Positions 1 to 11,904 of a stretch of 64,000 nucleotides of DNA are shown here, piece after piece. This DNA is from Flavobacteriales bacterium (GTDB lineage: Bacteria > Bacteroidota > Bacteroidia > Flavobacteriales_F > PHOS-HE28), in contig JAEUTA010000027.1 of the NCBI GenBank assembly GCA_016788205.1, positions 62,001 to 126,000 of the forward strand, read 5' to 3'. The translations under genes were made by a program, and so were the position numbers. Position 1 is the first letter of the stretch, and every line of letters begins with the position of its first letter. The notes under the pieces were generated by a model. It saw nothing but the letters and a program-made list of their open reading frames with translations, was not told the DNA's origin and did no database searches.

Positions 1-1762
1 AGAGCTCGACGGCGGCCAAGCTTGCCCCGTTATCCGGATCGAACGAGATGTCCACCGGTCCATCGAAGACGACCGCTCCGTTGGATATGATCAGCACTTC
101 AGCAATGCCCTCGCTGAGGAAGTCTGCCGAAGCGATCTGGAACTGAATGGGGATACAAGAAGAGCCACCGCAAGAGCCATCATCGCAATTGGCGAACGGG
201 TTAAAATTCCCGGCGGTCGGTGTTGTGCAACCGGCCACGATGTTCCCATGGCTGAACGCCACTGTTCCATCAGGTGAGGCACCATCGGCAAGGATGTTCT
301 CGTCCGCATCCGTCACTTCGTAGGTGCCGGCGATCGGGTCTCCATTGATGTCCGTGAAGATCGCCGTGTAGCAACCATCGTCGATGCAGGTCGAAAGCGT
401 GCCACTGCTGCCTGTTGCAACGCTCGTAGCGGTCCAGTCGATGATGCTCGAAACCGCTGGTGCGTTGCCGCTGCTGGAGAAGGTCACGGTGATCTCACGG
501 CAAGTGGGGACGCATTGTGCCATCAGGGCATCATAGGCGGCCTGTACGTTGAGCTTACCTCCAGTGATGGTGAGCGCACTGCCTCCCGGGAAGGGCGTGG
601 TATTGTTAAGGATGGCGTTCTTCACCATCGTGCGGGCGGCCTGCGGATCGTTCATCACCAAGGCGGCGAAGGAGGGGCAGGGGATGGAGTACAACAGCGC
701 CACCGCACCGGCCACCATGGGTATGGCGAACGAGTTGCCTTGCGATACGGTGTATGTGCTTGTAACAGTGGCCACATGGATCTGTAGCCCCGGCGCAAGC
801 AGATGTACAGTGTTCGGGCCGAATGCGAAGGGTGTTTCGTTGTTCGGGCCGTAGCTGGTCACTACTAGGTGTTCGGCCAGGGCGCAGTTCGCCGGGAAGT
901 CGCTTCCGTCTTCAATGCTCACATCATCGTTCGGCCCGCTGGCCACGAGGATGATCCCCGCATCCGCCATATCGCTGAACAAAGGGAATGCGAAACCGTT
1001 GCATGGAGATGAACCCGGGGAGCCCCACGATGCGGTGATACTTACCACGAGCAGTCCATCCAGTCCGTTCGATGCGTTGAACTCCTCGCGCAATTCAAGG
1101 GCGAATTCGAACTGTTCGATCGCGTCGGAAAGGTCATCGGTCTGGCCACTGGACACGATCTCCACGTCCCAGTTCACGCCGGCTATGCCGATGCCGTTGT
1201 TGCCGACGGCACCCAGCACACTGGCTACTTCAGTGCCGTGATCCGCACCCGCTCCCATGGCTGGCGAACCTTCCCAGATATTCCCTTGCAGATCGGGGTG
1301 GCTGGTTTGAATGGCTAGATCGGAGATGCCTACCCCGATGCGCACCCCGTTGGCCATGGTGCCACCTGTGGTGTGGTCCCACACGGATTCGACCCCGCTA
1401 TCCTCGATGTTCCATTGGCCGTCGTACTGCGTGTCGTTGGGCTCGATGAGATGTTCCAGCTTGTAGTTGAGCGAGGTGGCCTCTACGCCGGGCACGCGCG
1501 CTACGAGCTTTTCAAGATCCGCATCGCTCATGCTCGACACGGCAAAGGCGCAGTGAACGTAACGCGTCTTCTTGCCCAGCGTTCGTGCCTTGCTCAACGA
1601 TGCTCCTGCTGGCAGGGCGTTCGTGATCTCGCGGAGCACGTCTTTCTGGGTGGCATCCTTCTTCAGCAAGAGCAACACTTCACCCGGTCGCCAGGAAAGC
1701 TGTGCGAAGGCAGATGTGAGCAAGAGGATGGATACGAGCAGGAGGAGCGGCTTGCGGAACAT
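1..1762 (-). CDS. Secreted subtilisin-like serine protease (S8 family), C-terminus cut by window edge
   Basis: I translated this frame by hand from an ATG at 1762; it stays open to base 1, so the 3' end lies outside the window (about 587 codons seen). Residues 1-20 form a signal peptide (MFRKPLLLLV...AFA). A propeptide-like region reaches about residue 110. The S8 catalytic domain follows with Asp148 (GISDLAIQ), His175 (DHGTEVAS) and Ser344 (GNSFAIPMVAG), so the triad is complete, though the Asp and Ser motifs deviate from the usual DTG and GTSMA forms. After about residue 400 come cysteine-rich beta-type segments (TCREITV..., CDDGSCGG), typical of the long C-terminal parts of Bacteroidota secreted proteases; a T9SS sorting domain may lie beyond the edge. 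It probably degrades extracellular protein. It runs separately from the response regulator upstream (108-base gap). Confidence 0.85.
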   Translation of the reverse strand, partial: MFRKPLLLLVSILLLTSAFAQLSWRPGEVLLLLKKDATQKDVLREITNALPAGASLSKARTLGKKTRYVHCAFAVSSMSDADLEKLVARVPGVEATSLNYKLEHLIEPNDTQYDGQWNIEDSGVESVWDHTTGGTMANGVRIGVGISDLAIQTSHPDLQGNIWEGSPAMGAGADHGTEVASVLGAVGNNGIGIAGVNWDVEIVSSGQTDDLSDAIEQFEFALELREEFNASNGLDGLLVVSITASWGSPGSSPCNGFAFPLFSDMADAGIILVASGPNDDVSIEDGSDFPANCALAEHLVVTSYGPNNETPFAFGPNTVHLLAPGLQIHVATVTSTYTVSQGNSFAIPMVAGAVALLYSIPCPSFAALVMNDPQAARTMVKNAILNNTTPFPGGSALTITGGKLNVQAAYDALMAQCVPTCREITVTFSSSGNAPAVSSIIDWTATSVATGSSGTLSTCIDDGCYTAIFTDINGDPIAGTYEVTDADENILADGASPDGTVAFSHGNIVAGCTTPTAGNFNPFANCDDGSCGGSSCIPIQFQIASADFLSEGIAEVLIISNGAVVFDGPVDISFDPDNGASLAAVEL

Positions 1763-1832
1763 GGTGGTGCGGGCATTTCGGCCCATGCGACCAAGTTGCC
1801 GGATCCCTGGATCGCAGCGCGTGTCAAGAGGG

Positions 1833-1870: not shown

Positions 1871-2509
1871 TCAGCGCCCGAAGAAGCGGTTCACCGCCTC
1901 GGTGCGGTTCTGCACGTGCAGCTTGGCGTACATCCGGTGGATGTGTTGCTTGATGGCCGCTTCGCTGATCCCCATGCGTAGGCTGATCTCCTTGTAAAGC
2001 AGGCCCTCGGCAAGATGCTTCAGGATGTCGTGCTCACGATCGGTGAGCTTTGCCTCCGACACGCTCGTTCCGGAAGCGGTGGGCCTTAGCTGAGCCACCA
2101 CGCGGCGTGCTATGGATGCGCTCATGGGACTGCCGCCTTGGATGAGGTCCCTTATGGCGTCGATGATCTCGAGCGGTTTGGCGCTTTTCAAGAGATACCC
2201 GTTGGCACCGGCCTTCAACGCATCGAAAACGCGTTGATCGTCGTCGTGCATGGTGTACATGAGGAACTGTGTTGCCGGCCAGCGTCGGGCCAGTTCACGC
2301 ACACAATCGATGCCACTGGCGCCAGGCAGGTTGATGTCCATGATCACTACATCCGGACATCCTTCCGTCCACCCCTGGATCGCATCCTCGGCATTGGACC
2401 AAGCCTGCGCCCGCACCATGTCCTTTGCGGACGCCAGCACGGCATCAAGCACTTCACGGATGCGGGCATCATCTTCAACAAGGCCCACTTGTGGCGTGGT
2501 GATCATCAT
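1871..2509 (-). CDS. Response regulator, NarL/FixJ (LuxR-type HTH) family
   Basis: 212 residues. An N-terminal receiver domain (about 5-125) has the acidic pair at E12-D13/D14, the phospho-acceptor Asp58 in DVVIMDINLPG, Thr86 and Lys108 (GYLLKSA). A C-terminal LuxR-type helix-turn-helix (about 150-210; LTDREHDILKHLAEG, then EISLRMGISEAAIKQHIHRM) binds DNA. It is the last gene of an operon: its start overlaps the stop of the TPR kinase upstream by 4 bases (2506-2509), so the two are probably translated together and form a cognate pair. Phosphorylation of Asp58 by one of the two upstream kinases is the expected activation step. Target genes cannot be read from sequence. Confidence 0.93.
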   Translation of the reverse strand: MMITTPQVGLVEDDARIREVLDAVLASAKDMVRAQAWSNAEDAIQGWTEGCPDVVIMDINLPGASGIDCVRELARRWPATQFLMYTMHDDDQRVFDALKAGANGYLLKSAKPLEIIDAIRDLIQGGSPMSASIARRVVAQLRPTASGTSVSEAKLTDREHDILKHLAEGLLYKEISLRMGISEAAIKQHIHRMYAKLHVQNRTEAVNRFFGR

Positions 2510-4560
2510 ACCGCTAAGGTCGTGCGATCACTGTTCCCGGGGTTGGAACTTTCGTTAGCCAAGGGCACGAAAAGGGTGACCCGCGTACCCGAGCTTCCAT
2601 CGATGCTGAGCTTGGCACCGAGGCTCGCAGCCCGCCGTTGCATGCTACGGATGCCGTTGCCCGTGGTGGCGGTGGGTCCATCGGGAATGCCGGTGCCGTC
2701 ATCGTGAAGGACAAGCAGCAGACCCATCTGCCAGGCCAGATTCAGGCGCAAGGTGGAGGCGTTCGCATGCACGGCAACGTTCTGCAATGCTTCTTTCATG
2801 ATAAGGAAAGTTTCTCGCCGCTGCCCGGTCGTCAGTTGGAGTTCAGGCCAATGACCGTTGTCTTCGATGATGGGGGTTAGTTCGTGCTGTGCACAGTACA
2901 GAAGCGTGTAGTCCGTGATGTAGGTGACGAGCTGGTCCAGTCGTGTTGCCGAACTGTTCAGTGTCCAGATGATCTGGCGCAGGTTCGCGATCAGGTCATC
3001 GGCCATGGTGCTCCGTTGCAAGAGTTGTTTTCTCTTCCACGGGTCCGTTTCTCCTTCGGCCGCCATATCGCTCCACAGTTTCAGGGCGCTTAATCCTGCA
3101 CCAAGATCTTCATGAAGATCATGGCTCACCTGATCGCGCATACGTAGCTCACGGATCATGTGTTCATGTTGAACGCGCTGAAGTTCGAACCGGGCTGTAA
3201 CGCGTTCCCGGATGCGTCTTTGCGCGAAGTACCAGGCTAGTGATCCGGTGAGCAGGGCCGTGATGACCACGAAAAGGAGAAGGATCCTTCCACGGCCACG
3301 TTCATGCTGCAAAGCCGTGCTGGTCTCGATAGTGGCTTGTTCGGTACGTTCAGCGTCGGCGATGCTATCGGTGAATTCGGCTATTCGAAGGTCGTGTCGG
3401 AGGATGGCATCTCGTGCCTCCATCCGCTGGACGGAATCCTTCCAATCGGCCCAGCGTTCCGTCATGCCAAGTGCCTTTTCGGTATTCCCTTCCCGTTTGT
3501 ATAGATCAGCGAGCAGTCTGGCCGCGTGTACCATGCTGCCTTCGTCACCGGTTTCGCGTGCCAGGCCGACATATCCCCACCTGGCGGCCGTGTCCAGTGC
3601 CTGTTGCAACGCTTCGCGTGCGGCTGTCGGGTGTCCTATTCCCGCCAGGGCTTCGCCCTCGATCGCCCTGCAGCCGCACCATGCAGCATCATCGCGGATA
3701 TGTGATGCTATGCCGGCGCATTCATGTGCGGCAAGAGCCGCTGCTTCCAGCCGCCCGCTCCGCAGTAGGAAGGAGGATAGTGGTTCTAGCACGGTCAACG
3801 CATCCCAGTGCGGTCTATCCGATCGTACCAGTTCACGCGCACGCAGCATGAGACCCAGCGCCGCCGGATGGTCACCTTGCGCTTCTTCGATCTCCGCTGC
3901 GACCATCAACGTCAGCGCATGGCAGCTCTTCTCCGTGGTGTCGCATTGTGACAGGCTGTTGCTGGCTTCGGCATAGCGACGCTGCATGAGGAGGGCGCGG
4001 GCGCGGTGCTGCAGGCCTCGGGCGAGGTCGCACCGGGGTGGCAAGGACAAGGAGCGCAGAAGGTATATCTCATCGATGAAGAGGTCCAGTGCTTTTTGCG
4101 GTAGCCCAAGGGCGAGGTAGGTCACGCCCAGTGCGTCCAGGCAGGTGGCCATCCGCATCGTATCGCCTAGCGCAGAGCCCAACTCGAACGCCTCTCGGAA
4201 GTCGCGTTGTGCAGCCAGCATTTCGCGGTGGAATTTGGCGTGGTAGCCGCGGTTGTAGAGCAATGTGGCGCGAATGCGCATGGCTTCTTCGTGCAGGCGC
4301 TCATCGGGATGTTCCATTAAGCGACGGGTGAGCACATCCCCTTGCTCGAGGTAGGGAAGTGCGCGGTCTGACATGAACCAGGCACCAGCGATCACATCGA
4401 TCGCCTGCAGCCTGGAGCGATCGTCCAATGAAGTGGCGAGCACATCATCTATGGAGTCGGAATCGATGGGATACCATTGCGCGCTGATCGCTCCGGGCAG
4501 CACAACGAGCATCATGATCGATAGCGTCTTGATCCAGCGTGGCATGCCGCAACATAACAT
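2506..4560 (-). CDS. TPR-containing membrane histidine kinase (HisKA_3/NarX-type)
   Basis: 684 residues. Signal peptide at 1-27 (ends AISAQ), a periplasmic helical TPR-like sensor at about 50-390, one membrane segment at about 426-445, a dimerisation/phospho-acceptor helix with His483 in SHDLHEDLGAGLSALKL, and a C-terminal HATPase_c domain. The ATPase motifs are intact: N-box around Asn594 (KEALQNVAVHAN), G1 at DDGTGIPD and G2 at GNGIRSM. It should autophosphorylate on His483 and pass phosphate to the regulator encoded by the overlapping downstream gene. Only 3 bases separate it from the fused double kinase upstream, which is clearly related, so three kinase modules share one operon. The ligand is unknown. 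Confidence 0.92.
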   Translation of the reverse strand: MLCCGMPRWIKTLSIMMLVVLPGAISAQWYPIDSDSIDDVLATSLDDRSRLQAIDVIAGAWFMSDRALPYLEQGDVLTRRLMEHPDERLHEEAMRIRATLLYNRGYHAKFHREMLAAQRDFREAFELGSALGDTMRMATCLDALGVTYLALGLPQKALDLFIDEIYLLRSLSLPPRCDLARGLQHRARALLMQRRYAEASNSLSQCDTTEKSCHALTLMVAAEIEEAQGDHPAALGLMLRARELVRSDRPHWDALTVLEPLSSFLLRSGRLEAAALAAHECAGIASHIRDDAAWCGCRAIEGEALAGIGHPTAAREALQQALDTAARWGYVGLARETGDEGSMVHAARLLADLYKREGNTEKALGMTERWADWKDSVQRMEARDAILRHDLRIAEFTDSIADAERTEQATIETSTALQHERGRGRILLLFVVITALLTGSLAWYFAQRRIRERVTARFELQRVQHEHMIRELRMRDQVSHDLHEDLGAGLSALKLWSDMAAEGETDPWKRKQLLQRSTMADDLIANLRQIIWTLNSSATRLDQLVTYITDYTLLYCAQHELTPIIEDNGHWPELQLTTGQRRETFLIMKEALQNVAVHANASTLRLNLAWQMGLLLVLHDDGTGIPDGPTATTGNGIRSMQRRAASLGAKLSIDGSSGTRVTLFVPLANESSNPGNSDRTTLAV

Positions 4561-4563
4561 GGT

Positions 4564-7500
4564 TCAGGCGGCGGAGGTGTTCATGGAACGTTCGTCACCT
4601 CTGATCATTTCTTCGGCTAGATGCACGATTATCGTCGTGCCCTGGGTGCGTGTCATTTGAAACGATCCGCCGAGGGTCGCTATGCGTTTCTGCATGTTCC
4701 GTAGGCCATTCCCTCCGAAGTGTCCTGTGGTGCCATCGAATCCTCGGCCATTGTCCCTGAGGATAAGTTGGAGTCCATGCTCCCACCTCAGGGAAAGCGC
4801 GACATGGGTGGCGTTCGCATGTTTGACGGTATTGTGCAGCCCCTCCTTCACCACCAGGAAGAGATTGCGGCGTTGCTCCATCGTCAATTGCCACTCGGGC
4901 CAATCGGCGTCCATGGTGATCGTCAATGCGATGTTATGTTCCGCGAGGTATGTACGAGCATGACCGGCCACATAGGCCATGCTATCCGCCAAGGAGGAGC
5001 GCCCGGCGTCGAGTGCCCATACGATATGGTGAAGTGTGGAGATGAGTTCTCTGCACAATAGCGCGCGACGTTGAAGCCGGTCATGCTTTGTCGCATCCGT
5101 CTCCGCTTGAAGGGCCACTTCGGTCCGAAGCTTCAAGGCGGTCAGGCCGGCTCCGAGGTCTTCATGCATCTCATCGCTTATTCGCTGCCGTGCGCGCAGT
5201 TCGTTCACTTCCTTGTCGGCGATGGAGCGTTCAAGATCGAGTTCTGAGATGATCGTCATGTCACGTCGCCGGGCCATGATGCCGATGACCAGGCCGGACA
5301 AGAGCACAACGAGCGATGCGATGATGATCGCGAGCAAATAGCGTTGACCGCGATCGAGTTCGAGTTGAAGGCGAAGACGTTCGTTCGCGACGCGTTCCTC
5401 TTGCAGCCGTTGATCGTCGTTCAATGCCGCTTGTAAGGTCATCAGCGTGGCGCGATCATCCTGTTCGCGGATGGAATGGTCCAGTTCCAACCATTCGTGC
5501 CATGCTTCCACAGCGTTCTTCTCGTCGCCCAGAACGGTGAAAAGTCCCGCCAGGGTCCGTTGGAATCCACGTCGGCTGCTCGGACTGATGGTCGTGTCAC
5601 CGATCAATTCATGGTGAGCGAGTAGAAGTCGGTTGATGCGCACCTGCGCGTTCGGTGTTCCGGAAAGTCCTCTTGCGCGCTCTGCAAGAACGGATAAGGC
5701 GACGTCCATGCTCCCGTGGCGTCGAGCATGGACGTCGGCCGTATCGAGATGGGCTTGGGCCTTTGCATTCTGGCCGTTGATGAGCGCGACACGTGCAAGG
5801 CCGAGATGAGCTAAGGCGGAAGCTCGCTGGTTGCCCGCATCACGTGCGGCGATCAGCGATCGTTCGTAGTGGTGTGCAGCGCTGTCCGTGCGACCGAGGT
5901 TGAAGAGGCATAGCGCAAGGTTGCCATGCACATGGTGAACCTTAAGTAGCGGGTAGTTGGAACGTGTGTCCAATGGAAGCCAGCGTGAAGCGGTGCGGAA
6001 CCAAGGAAGAGCGGCTTCATCATCGTGGATGTTCTCGTGCAACAATCCGATCATGTTGTACGCTGTTGCGATCAGCAGGCTGTCTTGTGCCTTTTGTGCG
6101 AGGCGCAGTGCTTCGGTGGCGTCGACTATACCGCGATCGTAGAGCCCGCGGTAGTAGAACTGGTTGGCGCGTGACATGAGCAGTTGGCTGACGAGCACCA
6201 GGTCCGTATCACCCTTCGTCCTGGTGAGGGCATGGTCGATGACCTGGATGTTGGCCGCCGTGTTGGTCGTTCCGCTCGTATTGTGCATGACACTGTCCAG
6301 CAGCGGGTGATGGTAAAGTGGCGCTTGTGCGAAGGAACCGTTCGCTGTGCAGAATAGTGCCAGCGGTAAGGCCATGGCCCTGATGGACGACGATGGTGCG
6401 GATGCCGCCACACTGTTATCTGGAAGGGATATGCGGATCATATGCCCTCCGTTGAAGGTCTGACGTAGCGCTCCTCCGTCAGGGGCTATCCGGGCCTGGA
6501 GAGGCAGCATTTGGTTGGCCAGTAGTGCTTGCTGGCTCTTGCTCATAGGCACATCGCCGTGGATGGTCGTCACCAAACCCTTATCCCAATTGAAACGAAC
6601 GTGGATGCGGCCGCCGCGCTGCAAGGGCGCCAGTGCGCGAAGGGCGTCGCGTAGCACGGCCCACACGTTCCTCCGGAGTTCAGCATCGGCTTTCCGCTCA
6701 GGGAGGTCATCGGCCACCTTCAGTTCGAGGGATATGTCATGTTCAGCACAGAAGGCGCGGGCTTTATCGGATGTATAGGTCACCAATTGTTCCAAGGACG
6801 CGTCGTTGTGTTCCAGTGTCCAGAGGATATGGCGCATGCTTGCTACCAGATCGCTGGCAAGGGTCGCGATATGCAAGGCACGTTCTCGCGCTTCCGGTCG
6901 GGTCTCCGTCCCGGCGACCAGTTCGCTCTCGAGTTTCAGCGCGGACAGACCGGCCCCCAGGTCGTCGTGCAGGTCCGCGCTGACCTGTTGGCGCACGCGC
7001 AGTTCAGCGAGCTGACGTTCATTTTTCGCGTTGGCAAGGTTCATCGCCGTGATGTGGTCACGTCGCCGGGCGCGGCTGAGATAGAGTCCGATGGACCCCG
7101 ATAGCAGCAACAGGCCTGTGCCGCCCCCGTATAGTACGATCGCTCGAGAACGTCGTTCAGCGAGTACTTGCGCATCGGTTAGCATGCGGGTGTCCCGTTC
7201 AGCTTCCAAGGCAGCATCGGTAGCGTTCTTGGTGCGAAGGATGTCCTGGGCGGTGCGGGCCTCTTTCTTGCGCAGTACGCTGTCCAGTTCGTGCCAACGA
7301 AGGAACGCCTTCAGTGCTTCGTTCGACCGTCCATGCTCGGCCAGTATGTTGGCCGAACTGGCATGGAAACGGATGATGCTTCGGGGAGCTATGTCCGAGC
7401 GTGACTTCATCATCTCTTCGCCCCGCTTCAGCAATGCGAGTCCCTCGGCGTATCCACCTTTCTTGAACAGGTCTTCCACTTTCGCAGGGATGATGTCCAG

Positions 7501-8175
7501 CGCGACATCCATGATATCGTTGCGTTCCACCACGTCCAGTGCACTGTCCAGGAAAGCGATGTCCTCGTCTCTTCCGAGCTGCCCCATTTGGAAGAGCGCC
7601 AAGGCTTCTCCCCGGGCTGAGCCGTAGGACCGGGCAAGTGTGATGGATCGTTGCAGGTGCCAGCGCGCACTATCCTTCTGCCCAAGACCGGCCCAACACA
7701 ACCCCATGTTGCCATGTATCTTGTAGAGATTGGCGATGGGGTAGATGCAACGTGCATCGGAGGGGAAGTGGTCCAGTGCCTGGCGTAGCAGTATCATGGC
7801 CGCACTGTCACCGCCCTGCTCTTCGCGGAGAACGGCGACCTGGTTCAGGGAAGAAGAGATGAGCAGGCTGTCACCGATGCGTTCAGCGATGCGCCGTGCC
7901 TTTTCGGCCTCCACCAGGGACGCATCGTACAAGCCTTGGTAATAGAGTTGTTCGCAGCGTATACGCCGAAGGAAATAGGTCGGTCTAGGGTCGGCATCGG
8001 CATACACCTTTCGCAAGGCACTATCGATGGTGATCAGGTTGGCCTCGTAGAACGTTGGCCTCAACCGGGCCTGCACATGGTCCAACAGGGGTGATCGGAA
8101 CGAAGCGAGGCCTTGTCCCTGTGAACGGGGGCAAGCCAGCAAAAGGAACAGGAATGGACCGCACCAGCGCCACAC
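4564..8175 (-). CDS. Tandem fusion of two TPR histidine kinases; first ATPase half degenerate
   Basis: 1203 residues from a GTG start. Module 1 (1-600): signal peptide, TPR-like sensor (70-310), membrane segment (about 346-367), DHp helix with His403 (DLHDDLGAGLSALKL), then an ATPase-like region in which the N-box Asn is missing (VLRDALRALAPL), G1 reads HGDVPMS and no G2 glycine loop is seen. Module 2 (601-1203) begins with Met601 and another signal-peptide-like stretch (MALPLALFCTANGSFAQ), repeats the same sensor order, has a membrane segment (about 948-967), His1004 (EMHEDLGAGLTALKL) and a full ATPase (KEGLHNTVKHAN, DNGRGFDG, GGNGLRNM). The modules align along their length, so this looks like a tandem duplication later fused in frame. 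Module 2 alone would be 4564-6375. A frameshift or assembly artefact at the junction is the main alternative. Confidence 0.88.
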   Translation of the reverse strand: MWRWCGPFLFLLLACPRSQGQGLASFRSPLLDHVQARLRPTFYEANLITIDSALRKVYADADPRPTYFLRRIRCEQLYYQGLYDASLVEAEKARRIAERIGDSLLISSSLNQVAVLREEQGGDSAAMILLRQALDHFPSDARCIYPIANLYKIHGNMGLCWAGLGQKDSARWHLQRSITLARSYGSARGEALALFQMGQLGRDEDIAFLDSALDVVERNDIMDVALDIIPAKVEDLFKKGGYAEGLALLKRGEEMMKSRSDIAPRSIIRFHASSANILAEHGRSNEALKAFLRWHELDSVLRKKEARTAQDILRTKNATDAALEAERDTRMLTDAQVLAERRSRAIVLYGGGTGLLLLSGSIGLYLSRARRRDHITAMNLANAKNERQLAELRVRQQVSADLHDDLGAGLSALKLESELVAGTETRPEARERALHIATLASDLVASMRHILWTLEHNDASLEQLVTYTSDKARAFCAEHDISLELKVADDLPERKADAELRRNVWAVLRDALRALAPLQRGGRIHVRFNWDKGLVTTIHGDVPMSKSQQALLANQMLPLQARIAPDGGALRQTFNGGHMIRISLPDNSVAASAPSSSIRAMALPLALFCTANGSFAQAPLYHHPLLDSVMHNTSGTTNTAANIQVIDHALTRTKGDTDLVLVSQLLMSRANQFYYRGLYDRGIVDATEALRLAQKAQDSLLIATAYNMIGLLHENIHDDEAALPWFRTASRWLPLDTRSNYPLLKVHHVHGNLALCLFNLGRTDSAAHHYERSLIAARDAGNQRASALAHLGLARVALINGQNAKAQAHLDTADVHARRHGSMDVALSVLAERARGLSGTPNAQVRINRLLLAHHELIGDTTISPSSRRGFQRTLAGLFTVLGDEKNAVEAWHEWLELDHSIREQDDRATLMTLQAALNDDQRLQEERVANERLRLQLELDRGQRYLLAIIIASLVVLLSGLVIGIMARRRDMTIISELDLERSIADKEVNELRARQRISDEMHEDLGAGLTALKLRTEVALQAETDATKHDRLQRRALLCRELISTLHHIVWALDAGRSSLADSMAYVAGHARTYLAEHNIALTITMDADWPEWQLTMEQRRNLFLVVKEGLHNTVKHANATHVALSLRWEHGLQLILRDNGRGFDGTTGHFGGNGLRNMQKRIATLGGSFQMTRTQGTTIIVHLAEEMIRGDERSMNTSAA

Positions 8176-8323: not shown

Positions 8324-9541
8324 TCAGCTTCTCCTGTTCGCCAGCAGCAACGGTGCCTGCCCATCGAAAGGGTTGTCCATTCGTCCGATGCTGTGCGCGT
8401 CCATACCTGCTGCCCGCATCACGGTGCGGTCGCCGAAGCGTTTGCGGATCTTGTCCATGGCTTGGTAGAGATCCATGGCCTCTTCCGTATCGGTGAAGGC
8501 ATCCATTTGATGGCCGCCGCCTACGAGATGCGAGAAACGTACACCGATCAGTCGGATGCGTTGCCGACGATCGTACAGCTTGCGGAAGAGGTCGTGTATG
8601 ATGGGTAATATGATGTGGTCGCAGGCCGTGTAGCCGATCCGTTGTTGCTGGGTGTGCGTGTCGAAGTCGGTATAGCGGATCTTCACAGCTACGCAACTGG
8701 TCAGTTTGCCGCCCTTGCGCAGTTGGAAAGCGAGGCTCTCGGCCATGGCGGTGAGCATGCCCTTCAACATCACCACATCGATGGTGTCGCGGCTGAAGGT
8801 GCGTTCGGTGCTTACGCTCTTGCGTTCGTGCCAGGCCATCACGGGGCTGTCATCGATCCCGTTCGCCTTTCGCCAAAGAACGGGGCCGTGCTCGCCCAGT
8901 GCGCGTTGCATCAGTTCGATCGGCAACTCCTGCATGGTATGGATCTTCGCCACGCCCATGCTGCGCAGGAGGTGCGCCGTTTTCTCGCCCACTCCGGGTA
9001 TACGCTCAATGGGCATGGGCGCGAGGAAGGGTTTCTCCGTGCCGTTTTCCACCTGTAGTTCGCCGATGCCGTTCTTGGCCTCGCCGGTGGCCACCTTGCT
9101 CACGGTCTTGTTCACGCTAAGGCCGAAACTGTTGGGTAGCCCTGTCTCTTTCAGGATACGTTGGCGCAGTTCCTTAGCCAGCTTCCAGGCGCCGAAGAAC
9201 TTCTCCGTGCCGCTGAAGTCCACGTAGAACTCGTCCACGCTGCTTTTCTCGAACAGCGGTACATGCGCGCGGATGATCTCCGTCACCTCATCGCTCTTTT
9301 TCATGTACGCTCCGCTGTTGCCGCGTATGATGATGGCCTCCGGGCACAACTGCTTCGCCATGCGCATGGGCATCGCACTGCGCACACCCATCGTGCGGGC
9401 CTCGTAGCTGCAACTGGCCACCACGCCGCGGTCGCTATCGGCACCGATCAGCACCGGCTTGCCGATCAGCGAGGGGTTGTCCAGTCGTTCCACGCTTACG
9501 AAGAAGGTGTTCAGGTCAAGGTGTTGGATGGTCCGTTTCAT
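8324..9541 (-). CDS. dinB: DNA polymerase IV (Y-family translesion polymerase)
   Basis: 405 residues from the ATG at 9541 (MKRTIQHLDLN). A longer frame reaches 9745 but its first 68 residues are low-complexity Arg/Gly/Ala sequence laid over a structured non-coding element, so I reject that start. The catalytic acidic residues are Asp9 (HLDLNTFFVSVE) and Asp103-Glu104 (SVDEFYVDFSG). The palm/finger region is followed by a helix-hairpin-helix thumb (ERIPGVGEKTAHLLRSMG) and a little-finger domain. It copies past damaged bases in an error-prone way. A LexA-like repressor and two ORF6N genes lie just upstream on the other strand, which fits damage control, although no LexA box of known type was confirmed. 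Confidence 0.93.
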   Translation of the reverse strand: MKRTIQHLDLNTFFVSVERLDNPSLIGKPVLIGADSDRGVVASCSYEARTMGVRSAMPMRMAKQLCPEAIIIRGNSGAYMKKSDEVTEIIRAHVPLFEKSSVDEFYVDFSGTEKFFGAWKLAKELRQRILKETGLPNSFGLSVNKTVSKVATGEAKNGIGELQVENGTEKPFLAPMPIERIPGVGEKTAHLLRSMGVAKIHTMQELPIELMQRALGEHGPVLWRKANGIDDSPVMAWHERKSVSTERTFSRDTIDVVMLKGMLTAMAESLAFQLRKGGKLTSCVAVKIRYTDFDTHTQQQRIGYTACDHIILPIIHDLFRKLYDRRQRIRLIGVRFSHLVGGGHQMDAFTDTEEAMDLYQAMDKIRKRFGDRTVMRAAGMDAHSIGRMDNPFDGQAPLLLANRRS

Positions 9542-9587
9542 GGCGTTCAGGAGGCAGGAGCAGGAGCAAGGGCAGGAGGGCGCCTTA

Positions 9588-9735
9588 ACGGGCTGTCCGC
9601 TATAGTCCCGTTTGGCCATGCCAGCGGTGGCGGCACTGCGGGGTCCCCTCGTTCCTCGGCGCCTCCTCGTTGCACGCCTCCGCAGGCCCGGCCAAACGGG
9701 AGCTGCCGCTTCCATCCCTGGCGCGGGTCCGCGTC
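9588..9735 (-). ncRNA. Structured RNA-like element upstream of dinB, possibly Flavo-1 type
   Basis: Read on the minus strand, two conserved-looking flanks (GGGATGGAAGCGGC at the 5' side, GACTATAGCGGACAGCCCG at the 3' side) enclose a long hairpin. Its base is a perfect 12-bp inverted repeat, TCCCGTTTGGCC at 9606-9617 and its complement at 9690-9701, with more pairing inside (CTGCGG/CCGCAG). From memory these flanks resemble a structured RNA recurring in Bacteroidota; Flavo-1 is the family I would test first, but I could not verify it. It ends about 47 bases before the dinB start, so it could be the dinB leader, a free small RNA or a dispersed repeat. Start and end are approximate. Confidence 0.5.
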
Positions 9736-9753
9736 CGGCCCACAAATTCTTGT

Positions 9754-9770: not shown

Positions 9771-9830
9771 TATTGTGTCCGGTAATTTAGTCATTATGTT
9801 TGCGCCGTCGGAAATTTGATCTATGTGCTG

Positions 9831-10445
9831 ATGGGAACTTTGTCAATACAGCAGTTCGCTGGCCGGGACAAGCCGGTGTTGGAACCGCTTACCCGCATCG
9901 TGAACGAGCCGCCAGCCCGTTACACGCCCATCGCTCCGCCCGATGCGGCCATCACCGGTCGCATCCACCAAGTCCGTGGGCGGCGTGTTCTGTTGGACCG
10001 TGACCTCGCCGAACTCTACGGTGTGGAGACCAAACAGCTTAAGCGGCAGGTGCGAAGGAATCTGGGGCGCTTCCCCGAAGACTTCATGTTCGATCTCACG
10101 TTGGAGGAGGCCGAGCTTTCAAGGAGCCAAATTGGCACCTTGAAACAGGGGGAGAACATCAAGTACCTCCCCATGGCCTTCACCGAGCAGGGCGTGGCCA
10201 TGCTCTCCAGCGTACTGAACAGCGAGCAGGCCGTCCTGGTCAATATCCACATCATCCGCGTGTTCACCCGTATGCGCGAAGTGCTTCTTGCCCACCACGA
10301 GGTGCTTCAGAAGTTGGAGGAGCTGGAAGGCCGCCTGTCCACGCACGACGAAGAGATCCAGGCCATCTTCGATCATCTCACGGCCTTGGTGTCTCCGGCT
10401 GATCGTCAAAGCAAGCCTATAGGCTTCAAACCCTCCACCCACTGA
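9831..10445 (+). CDS. ORF6N-domain protein, phage antirepressor type (copy 1)
   Basis: 204 residues from the ATG at 9831; an in-frame TTG five codons upstream is possible. The central part (about 45-165) is an ORF6N domain: GRRVLLDRDLAELYGVETKQL, then RNLGRFPEDFMFDLT, LPMAFTEQGVAMLSSVLNSE and a helix with IHIIRVFTRMREVLL. A coiled-coil tail follows (LEELEGRLSTHDEEIQAIF). ORF6N proteins are known from phages as antirepressor-like DNA-binding proteins and are also common on Bacteroidota chromosomes, where their role is poorly known. It is followed after 18 bases by a paralogue and then by a LexA-like repressor on the same strand, so the three may form one unit. No other phage gene is present. 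Confidence 0.85.
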   Translation: MGTLSIQQFAGRDKPVLEPLTRIVNEPPARYTPIAPPDAAITGRIHQVRGRRVLLDRDLAELYGVETKQLKRQVRRNLGRFPEDFMFDLTLEEAELSRSQIGTLKQGENIKYLPMAFTEQGVAMLSSVLNSEQAVLVNIHIIRVFTRMREVLLAHHEVLQKLEELEGRLSTHDEEIQAIFDHLTALVSPADRQSKPIGFKPSTH

Positions 10446-10463
10446 TCATTAACCTTACGTTCC

Positions 10464-11006
10464 ATGTACGCCGCCACATCCATACTCGACCGTTCGCCAG
10501 CCTTGGTGCTGGAGCCGCCTTCCGGCTATGAAGCTTCGCCTTTCCCTGATGAACGCTTGGTGCGCAAGGCCCATGTGCTGCGCGGACAGTTCGTGGTGTT
10601 GGAGAACGATCTCGCCGAACTCTACGGTGTAACATCCGCACAACTCGGCAACCAAGCCGATCTGCACATGGCACGTTTCCCGGATCACCTGCTCTTTACG
10701 CTTTCCGCGGAAGAGTTGGAACAGTTACCAACCACCGTGCGAGGTATGGTCAGTGCTTCGCCGCGTGCCTTTACGGCTCCCGGCGTTCTCATGCTCGCTT
10801 GCATCCTCGGTAGCGAACAGGCCATCACTACCAGCGTCCGCATCATGGAACTCTTCGTGCGCATGCGCCGTCTGCTCATCAACGATCAGGATCTACTGCT
10901 GCGTCTGGAGAGGCTGGACCAACGCGCCACCGGCAACCGGGACGACATCGCATCCACGCTTCACGACCTTGATCAGCTCTTCGCCCCACCCACCATCGAG
11001 AATTGA
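10464..11006 (+). CDS. ORF6N-domain protein (copy 2, diverged paralogue)
   Basis: 180 residues. It follows copy 1 after 18 bases and shares its plan: RGQFVVLENDLAELYGVTSAQL, HMARFPDHLLFTLS, SPRAFTAPGVLMLACILGSE, VRIMELFVRMRRLLIN and a C-terminal coiled segment (LERLDQRATGNRDDIASTL). The middle is more diverged, with the PMAFTEQG segment reading PRAFTAPG and LGN in place of the LKR after the ELYGV turn. This suggests duplication followed by divergence, perhaps giving a heteromeric partner of copy 1. A role in regulating or binding the repressor encoded 70 bases downstream is plausible by analogy with phage antirepressors but is inference. Confidence 0.8.
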   Translation: MYAATSILDRSPALVLEPPSGYEASPFPDERLVRKAHVLRGQFVVLENDLAELYGVTSAQLGNQADLHMARFPDHLLFTLSAEELEQLPTTVRGMVSASPRAFTAPGVLMLACILGSEQAITTSVRIMELFVRMRRLLINDQDLLLRLERLDQRATGNRDDIASTLHDLDQLFAPPTIEN

Positions 11007-11076: not shown

Positions 11077-11904
11077 ATGGCAAACCCCGTATTCGGATCG
11101 AACATCAAGCTGCTGCGTACGCGCCGAGGCCGCTCGCAGGAAGAAACGGCCATCGCTCTCGAAGTGAAACGTTCCAGCTACAGCGGCTACGAGAACGGCA
11201 GTGCCGAACCCTCTTTCGACCTGCTCGTGCGCATGAGCGAGTACTTCAAGCTTAGCATTGACAAGTTGCTGCGCGATGACCTCACGGCGCTTAGCGATAA
11301 CCAGCTCGGCATCCTGGAGCGCGGTGGCGACATCGACCTCAGCGGCCGCCGATTGCGCGTGCTCGCCACCACCGTTGATCGTGAGGACCGCGAGAACGTG
11401 GAATTGGTGCCCGAGAAGGCCAAGGCAGGTTATGCACTGGGTTACGCCGATCCAGAGTACATCAGCATACTGCCTACGTTCCAGATGCCTTTCCTGGCGC
11501 GGGACCGCAAGTACCGAACGTTCCAGATCAGTGGCGACAGTATGCCACCGGTGAACGATGGATCATGGGTGACGGGTGAATATGTACAGAACTGGCAGAC
11601 CATCCGCGATGGGCAGCCGTACATCGTGGTCACCAAGGATGATGGCATCGTGTTTAAAGTGGTGTACAGCCAGGTGAAGGATAAAGGCACCTTGCTACTG
11701 TGCAGTACGAACCCGATCTATTCGCCTTACGAAGTGCAGGTGGCCAACGTGCTCGAGATCTGGAAGTTCGTGCATTTCATCAGCGCCGAACTGCCAGAGC
11801 CCAATCTTACGCGTGACGAACTGGCTCGCAGCGTGATGGACCTCCGCAAGGAAGTGGGCCAGCTACGACTGGCGATGGAGCAGCAAGGAAGGTTGTCGTT
11901 CTAG
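11077..11904 (+). CDS. LexA-like repressor: XRE helix-turn-helix plus S24 self-cleavage domain
   Basis: 275 residues. The N-terminal XRE-type helix-turn-helix (about 8-65; SQEETAIALEV, SSYSGYENG) binds DNA. The C-terminal S24 peptidase domain has an Ala117-Gly118 cleavage bond (KAKAGYALGY), nucleophile Ser155 (ISGDSMPPV) and general-base Lys194 (GIVFKVVY); the Ser-Lys spacing of 39 is near that of LexA. An acidic/coiled tail (about 245-275) is extra. Proteins of this type are cleaved after DNA damage, releasing their targets. Its neighbours (dinB and two ORF6N genes) make a small damage-response or former phage switch the most natural reading. It differs from classic LexA, which has a winged helix at the N-terminus. 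Confidence 0.9.
   Translation: MANPVFGSNIKLLRTRRGRSQEETAIALEVKRSSYSGYENGSAEPSFDLLVRMSEYFKLSIDKLLRDDLTALSDNQLGILERGGDIDLSGRRLRVLATTVDREDRENVELVPEKAKAGYALGYADPEYISILPTFQMPFLARDRKYRTFQISGDSMPPVNDGSWVTGEYVQNWQTIRDGQPYIVVTKDDGIVFKVVYSQVKDKGTLLLCSTNPIYSPYEVQVANVLEIWKFVHFISAELPEPNLTRDELARSVMDLRKEVGQLRLAMEQQGRLSF

Follow-up and report, generated by a model that had tools for sequence, protein, structure and literature searches.

The window, a 64,000-nucleotide stretch of a Flavobacteriales contig, encodes a double sensor histidine kinase in which two full modules share one reading frame (Table 1). Both halves are TPR sensor histidine kinases of the HisKA_3 class. Each has a signal-peptide-like start, a TPR region, a membrane helix, a DHp histidine (H403 and H1004), and a CA region. 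We read the protein, on the evidence of its sequence, as a true split histidine kinase whose covalently linked arrangement is conserved and which derives from a tandem duplicate, and we put the probability of this reading at about 0.45.

The open reading frame runs for 1203 codons from its GTG without an internal stop, and an in-frame TAG lies just 5' of the GTG. As the original prediction had it, two kinases are fused in frame; the fusion is genuine and not an assembly error. A homologue with the same architecture, of the kind that the prediction proposed to search for, is present in the Flavobacteriales bacterium SJ97 MAG (G015; contig JADZGG010000296.1), where the fused frame is also 1203 residues long, has no stop, and is 44% identical end to end. 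Two assemblies so diverged could not share a missing stop by error. An assembly or sequencing artefact, whether frameshift or lost stop, is thus scarcely credible and is in practice ruled out by this independent genome.

Table 1. Features of the fused kinase and its operon-mates in the window.
Feature	Position	Strand	Basis and remarks
Fused double sensor histidine kinase, 1203 aa	4564..8175	-	GTG start, stop 4564-4566; equal-length homologue L033:790-4401
Module 1 N-terminal signal peptide, residues 1-21	8113..8175	-	Hydropathy
Module 1 TPR sensor region, probably periplasmic, residues 22-345	7141..8112	-	TPR_12 just under cut-off; 44% identity to G015
Module 1 transmembrane helix, residues 346-364	7084..7140	-	Hydropathy
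Module 1 DHp (HisKA_3), intact; His403 at 6967-6969	6709..7002	-	38.4 bits; 51% identity to G015
Module 1 CA domain, N/G1/G2 boxes lost, ATPase fold kept in model	6415..6708	-	Alignment and predicted structure
Junction resembling an internal signal peptide, residues 598-617; candidate SPase I site SFA/Q between 616 and 617	6325..6384	-	Alignment, hydropathy
Module 2 TPR sensor region, probably periplasmic, residues 618-946	5338..6324	-	TPR_12 and TPR_1; Foldseek TPR and Rap matches
Module 2 transmembrane helix, residues 948-966	5278..5334	-	Hydropathy
Module 2 DHp; His1004 at 5164-5166	4906..5202	-	HisKA_3 24.4 bits, under single-module relatives (32.1-44.7)
Module 2 CA domain, predicted intact ATPase	4609..4905	-	HATPase_c 36.2 bits; all of N, G1 and G2 present
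Third TPR histidine kinase (HK3), intact boxes	2506..4560	-	Operon-mate of the fused gene, 3-base gap after it; order kept in G015
LuxR/NarL-type response regulator, probable target	1871..2509	-	Response_reg and GerE; overlaps HK3 by 4 bases; 76% identity to G015 regulator

Among 45 congeneric genomes, the fusion occurs in one other, G015. A first contig scan with a single-protein query gave no match, and an alignment-based contig scan returned the G015 contig as its sole match. No further fused protein was found in a class-wide scan of 395 genomes (an evenly drawn sample; E cut-off 1e-60). Candidates in G027 (a 1420-aa frame) and G028 (1268) were rejected as adjacent kinases, each with its own stop. 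A single-module relative stands beside a regulator in 18 other congeners, one per genome (the G031 copy ends at the contig edge, with its neighbour out of view), and G104, a genome of another family, likewise has one next to a regulator. The HisKA_3 kinases of the congeners (for example in G060, G003, and G010) have the same order of signal peptide, TPR, membrane helix, DHp, and CA and the same LuxR type of regulator, and they are about 28–39% identical to each fused module. They differ in having one module, an intact ATPase, and a separate genomic slot. The original prediction had reasoned that two separate genes in all close relatives would point to two ordinary kinases. The close relatives have one single-module kinase instead, and the only other genome with the double module has it fused.

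The ATP site of module 1 is lost in both species, and in this the prediction of a broken ATPase was correct. The N-box asparagine is replaced by A or V, and the glycines of G1 and G2 are missing; in the window protein the N-box residue is A, G1 reads HGDVP, and G2 reads LANQM. In neither species does Pfam match module 1 to HATPase_c, even with the threshold relaxed to E=1. These residues are kept in 26 comparison kinase modules (18 single-module kinases, four upstream kinases, two HK3, and two module 2), with gaps only in one that is truncated by a contig end. The phosphoacceptor domain of module 1 is retained, as had been proposed with the correct numbering of His403. It matches HisKA_3, and both His403 and the acidic residue that follows it are kept in the two species. 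In the AlphaFold model, the module 1 core forms a full alpha/beta sandwich with a mean pLDDT of 87.7. This is a model of one chain with an overall pTM of 0.46, and it is uninformative on DHp pairing. Foldseek matches the core to those of histidine kinases including DesK, RetS, the RetS-GacS complex, and DivL. The TM-scores are modest, probably because the DHp-CA angle differs.

Module 2 keeps its N, G1, and G2 boxes (NTVKHA, DNGRG, and GNGLRNM), and the original description of it as intact holds for the ATPase. By these boxes and by its Pfam scores it is a HisKA_3 sensor kinase (HPK7/DesK-NarX class): 24.4 bits for HisKA_3 and 36.2 bits for HATPase_c exceed the respective cut-offs of 24 and 26.4, although the former falls to 21.6 bits, just below the cut-off, when a longer query is scanned. 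In G015, the module 2 DHp motif (L033 3703-4398) reads HEALGAGLEALK and deviates from the HDDLGAGLSALK consensus right after the histidine, which is consistent with wear of this domain. The DxxxQ phosphatase motif of HisKA_3 kinases places a glutamine five residues after the DHp histidine. Both modules and many relatives have alanine there, and the remaining relatives have valine.

The two halves show complementary wear, which is our main ground for preferring the split-kinase reading. Between the host and G015, identity is 51% in both DHp domains, 28% in the module 1 CA domain, and 53% in the module 2 CA domain (Fisher p=0.0004); these values come from one pairwise comparison, since only two genomes carry the fusion. 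The CA domain of HK3 is 40% identical between the same genomes. The first DHp helix is identical at 24/30 positions in module 1 versus 22/30 in module 2. In HisKA_3 score, module 1 (38.4 and 34.8 bits) lies inside the range of 14 single-module kinases scanned, 32.1–44.7 bits, and module 2 (24.4 and 28.4 bits) lies under it; the DHp of HK3 is likewise low (25.3 and 19.2 bits). HATPase_c scores of module 2 are normal (36.2 and 48.3 bits). The good phosphoacceptor is in the half that lacks an ATPase, and the half whose DHp is more worn has the good ATPase; this fits the pattern of a split kinase.

According to the mechanism we propose, tandem duplication of a single-module TPR kinase gave two copies that came to share one reading frame. 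The first copy would then have lost ATP binding and kept its phosphoacceptor DHp, and the second would have kept its ATPase. The two DHp domains would pair as in an ordinary dimer of the DesK/NarX class, and the module 2 CA domain would phosphorylate His403 of module 1, besides or in place of His1004. The phosphate may then go from module 1, and perhaps also from HK3, to the presumed partner, the LuxR-type regulator two genes downstream. The output would then be set by two different TPR sensors at a fixed 1:1 ratio.

The original prediction offered that the dead half might accept phosphate from the live half or restrain it. This was the right shortlist, and the domain conservation appears to favor acceptance. 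Conservation of the module 1 DHp could instead reflect dimerization or docking of the regulator. In one alternative, which we consider rather unlikely, module 1 is an allosteric pseudokinase whose dead core pairs with module 2 and tunes it, or docks the regulator, and His403 carries no phosphate. DivL, RetS, and evolved ChrS offer a likeness, as a histidine kinase core that lacks or does not use kinase activity tunes an active paralogue (PMC4211667, PMC9491836). They are separate proteins, whereas module 1 is covalently fused to its active partner. DivL and ChrS work without a phosphorylatable residue of their own (PMC9491836, PMC4211667), and that the evolved ChrS pseudokinase functions without its own histidine (PMC9491836) calls for caution with the split-kinase reading. 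The Foldseek matches to RetS, the RetS-GacS complex, and DivL, and a CA fold that is predicted intact although its ATP sites are gone, also suit this alternative. Against it stand the retention of His403 and its acidic neighbor in both species and the higher HisKA_3 score of the first DHp. DivL, unlike module 1, has lost its phosphoacceptor histidine.

It is improbable that the module 1 CA domain is merely decaying, with module 1 having no role beyond its sensor and the fusion being a neutral accident. This CA domain is the fastest-changing of the domains, and the distribution of the fusion is patchy, as decay would have it. However, the frame and the first DHp have stayed intact across a divergence that leaves just 44% identity, neither species has a stop or frameshift, and the CA fold is predicted with high confidence.

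The module 1 core is cytoplasmic and the second sensor follows it, so the chain must cross the membrane again. The signal-peptide-like stretch reported at the junction was numbered correctly, spanning M601–Q617, and hydropathy agrees with it. This segment may be retained as an anchor, or signal peptidase may cleave it, and either fate is compatible with the split-kinase mechanism. We regard it as a serious possibility, somewhat short of even odds, that signal peptidase I cuts at SFA/Q (APA/Q in G015) to give two membrane kinase subunits in a 1:1 ratio that form a heterodimer. Such a cut is a matter of processing and could hold alongside the split-kinase explanation. In both species, the junction resembles the N-terminal signal peptide (KD-19 of 1.23 and 1.89, against 0.95 and 1.85 for SP1) and is less hydrophobic than the membrane helices, though only slightly so with respect to TM1 of the window protein (1.58). 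An ending of the form small-x-A/Q falls at the aligned place in both species and is seen in many single-module signal peptides. On the other side, the comparison comprises two sequences, the junction is poorly conserved (28% identity to G015), and a signal anchor that stays uncut would suit the topology just as well. A precedent is the FbcH cytochrome b/c1 precursor of Bradyrhizobium, in which an internal signal peptide follows a membrane-bound first half and cleavage is proven. FbcH is a respiratory protein, whereas cleavage in the fused kinase is a guess. A literature search for the FbcH precedent found nothing. The original prediction, which envisaged one receptor of ~130 kDa, did not include cleavage; a signal peptidase cut might give two subunits instead.

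Module 2 might also be started internally, at an ATG at residue 601 in the window protein and at one of several candidates in G015, giving two separate proteins. In-frame start codons at the junction in both species speak for this, but we think it distinctly unlikely. The start positions in the two species do not match, the ATG in the window would yield a signal peptide that lacks a positive n-region, and separate initiation would not require the stop to be missing.

The original prediction described the fused kinase and missed its operon-mates, HK3 and the regulator. The order is the same in G015, with a third TPR kinase and then a LuxR-type regulator after the fused gene. A subtilase-family (S8) protein with a signal peptide is encoded 84 bases downstream of the regulator (window 1-1786, minus strand) and was not found there in G015. 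The fused operon of the host (G000) adjoins, on its upstream side, a gene for a DinB/UmuC-type polymerase of the IMS family (window 8324-9745, minus strand), which is conserved in relatives, where it adjoins other genes. Two tandem ORF6N-domain genes (window 9816-11006, plus strand) follow, and then a regulator with HTH and S24-peptidase domains (11077-11904). The ORF6N pair and this regulator are conserved close to the polymerase gene in several congeners. Elsewhere in the host, locus L072 (1405-8624; G000:C9) has three separate, unfused TPR kinases and one regulator in a similar layout and is a natural comparison. Alternating kinase-regulator-kinase-regulator arrays occur at L044 (3290-9563, in G010) and also at L038, L045, and L047, with one kinase of >1000 aa and one TPR kinase.

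In a tree, HK3 and the upstream kinases fall outside a group (100/99) that contains module 1, module 2, and the single-module kinases. The clade of module 1 with module 2 is weakly supported (70/40). The duplication likely took place just before the fusion. By an rpoB fragment, the host is nearest to G003, G060, and G067 (97–98%), and G015 is at 91%; those three nevertheless carry the single form. In G060 and G067, the single kinase separates two genes that are immediate neighbors in the host, where the slot is empty. In G015, the polymerase gene has a different neighbor, and the fused operon lies on another contig. Because the close relatives have the single form only and the neighborhoods in the host and G015 differ, we suggest, as the best account of the patchy spread, that the operon was transferred horizontally or lost differentially. 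G019 has a second rpoB fragment with 98% identity to that of the host alongside its own 92% copy and is probably contaminated. The full combination, a signalling polyprotein that signal peptidase cuts at the internal signal peptide into a phosphoacceptor kinase whose ATPase is dead and the catalytic partner of that kinase, acting as an obligate 1:1 heterodimeric two-sensor split kinase whose operon moves between genomes, is in our view unlikely.

Non-hybrid kinases that carry two transmitter domains are very rare (2/15,704; PMC3018481). TodS and TmoS share with the fused protein two transmitter modules and two sensors per polypeptide. TodS is soluble, has a receiver between the kinases, uses a His-Asp-His-Asp relay, and has autokinase activity in both modules (PMC4321377). 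Pfam finds no Response_reg in the fused protein, which thus differs from the TodS type in having no receiver between its transmitters, and its module 1 has no ATP site. In CheA3/CheA4 of Rhodobacter sphaeroides, kinase and phosphoacceptor are on separate chains (PMC3591291). The likeness is that ATPase and phosphoacceptor belong to different units; for the fused kinase, trans-phosphorylation is proposed, and the sequence pattern is compatible with it. CheA3 and CheA4 are two separate soluble proteins of the CheA class, whereas here one precursor of the HisKA_3 class has two membrane sensors. A natural pair whose two halves show complementary loss or wear of ATPase and phosphoacceptor would provide direct evidence of split-kinase evolution from a tandem duplicate. 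The fused kinase would also offer a simple single-gene system for pseudokinase function and obligate heterodimer signalling.
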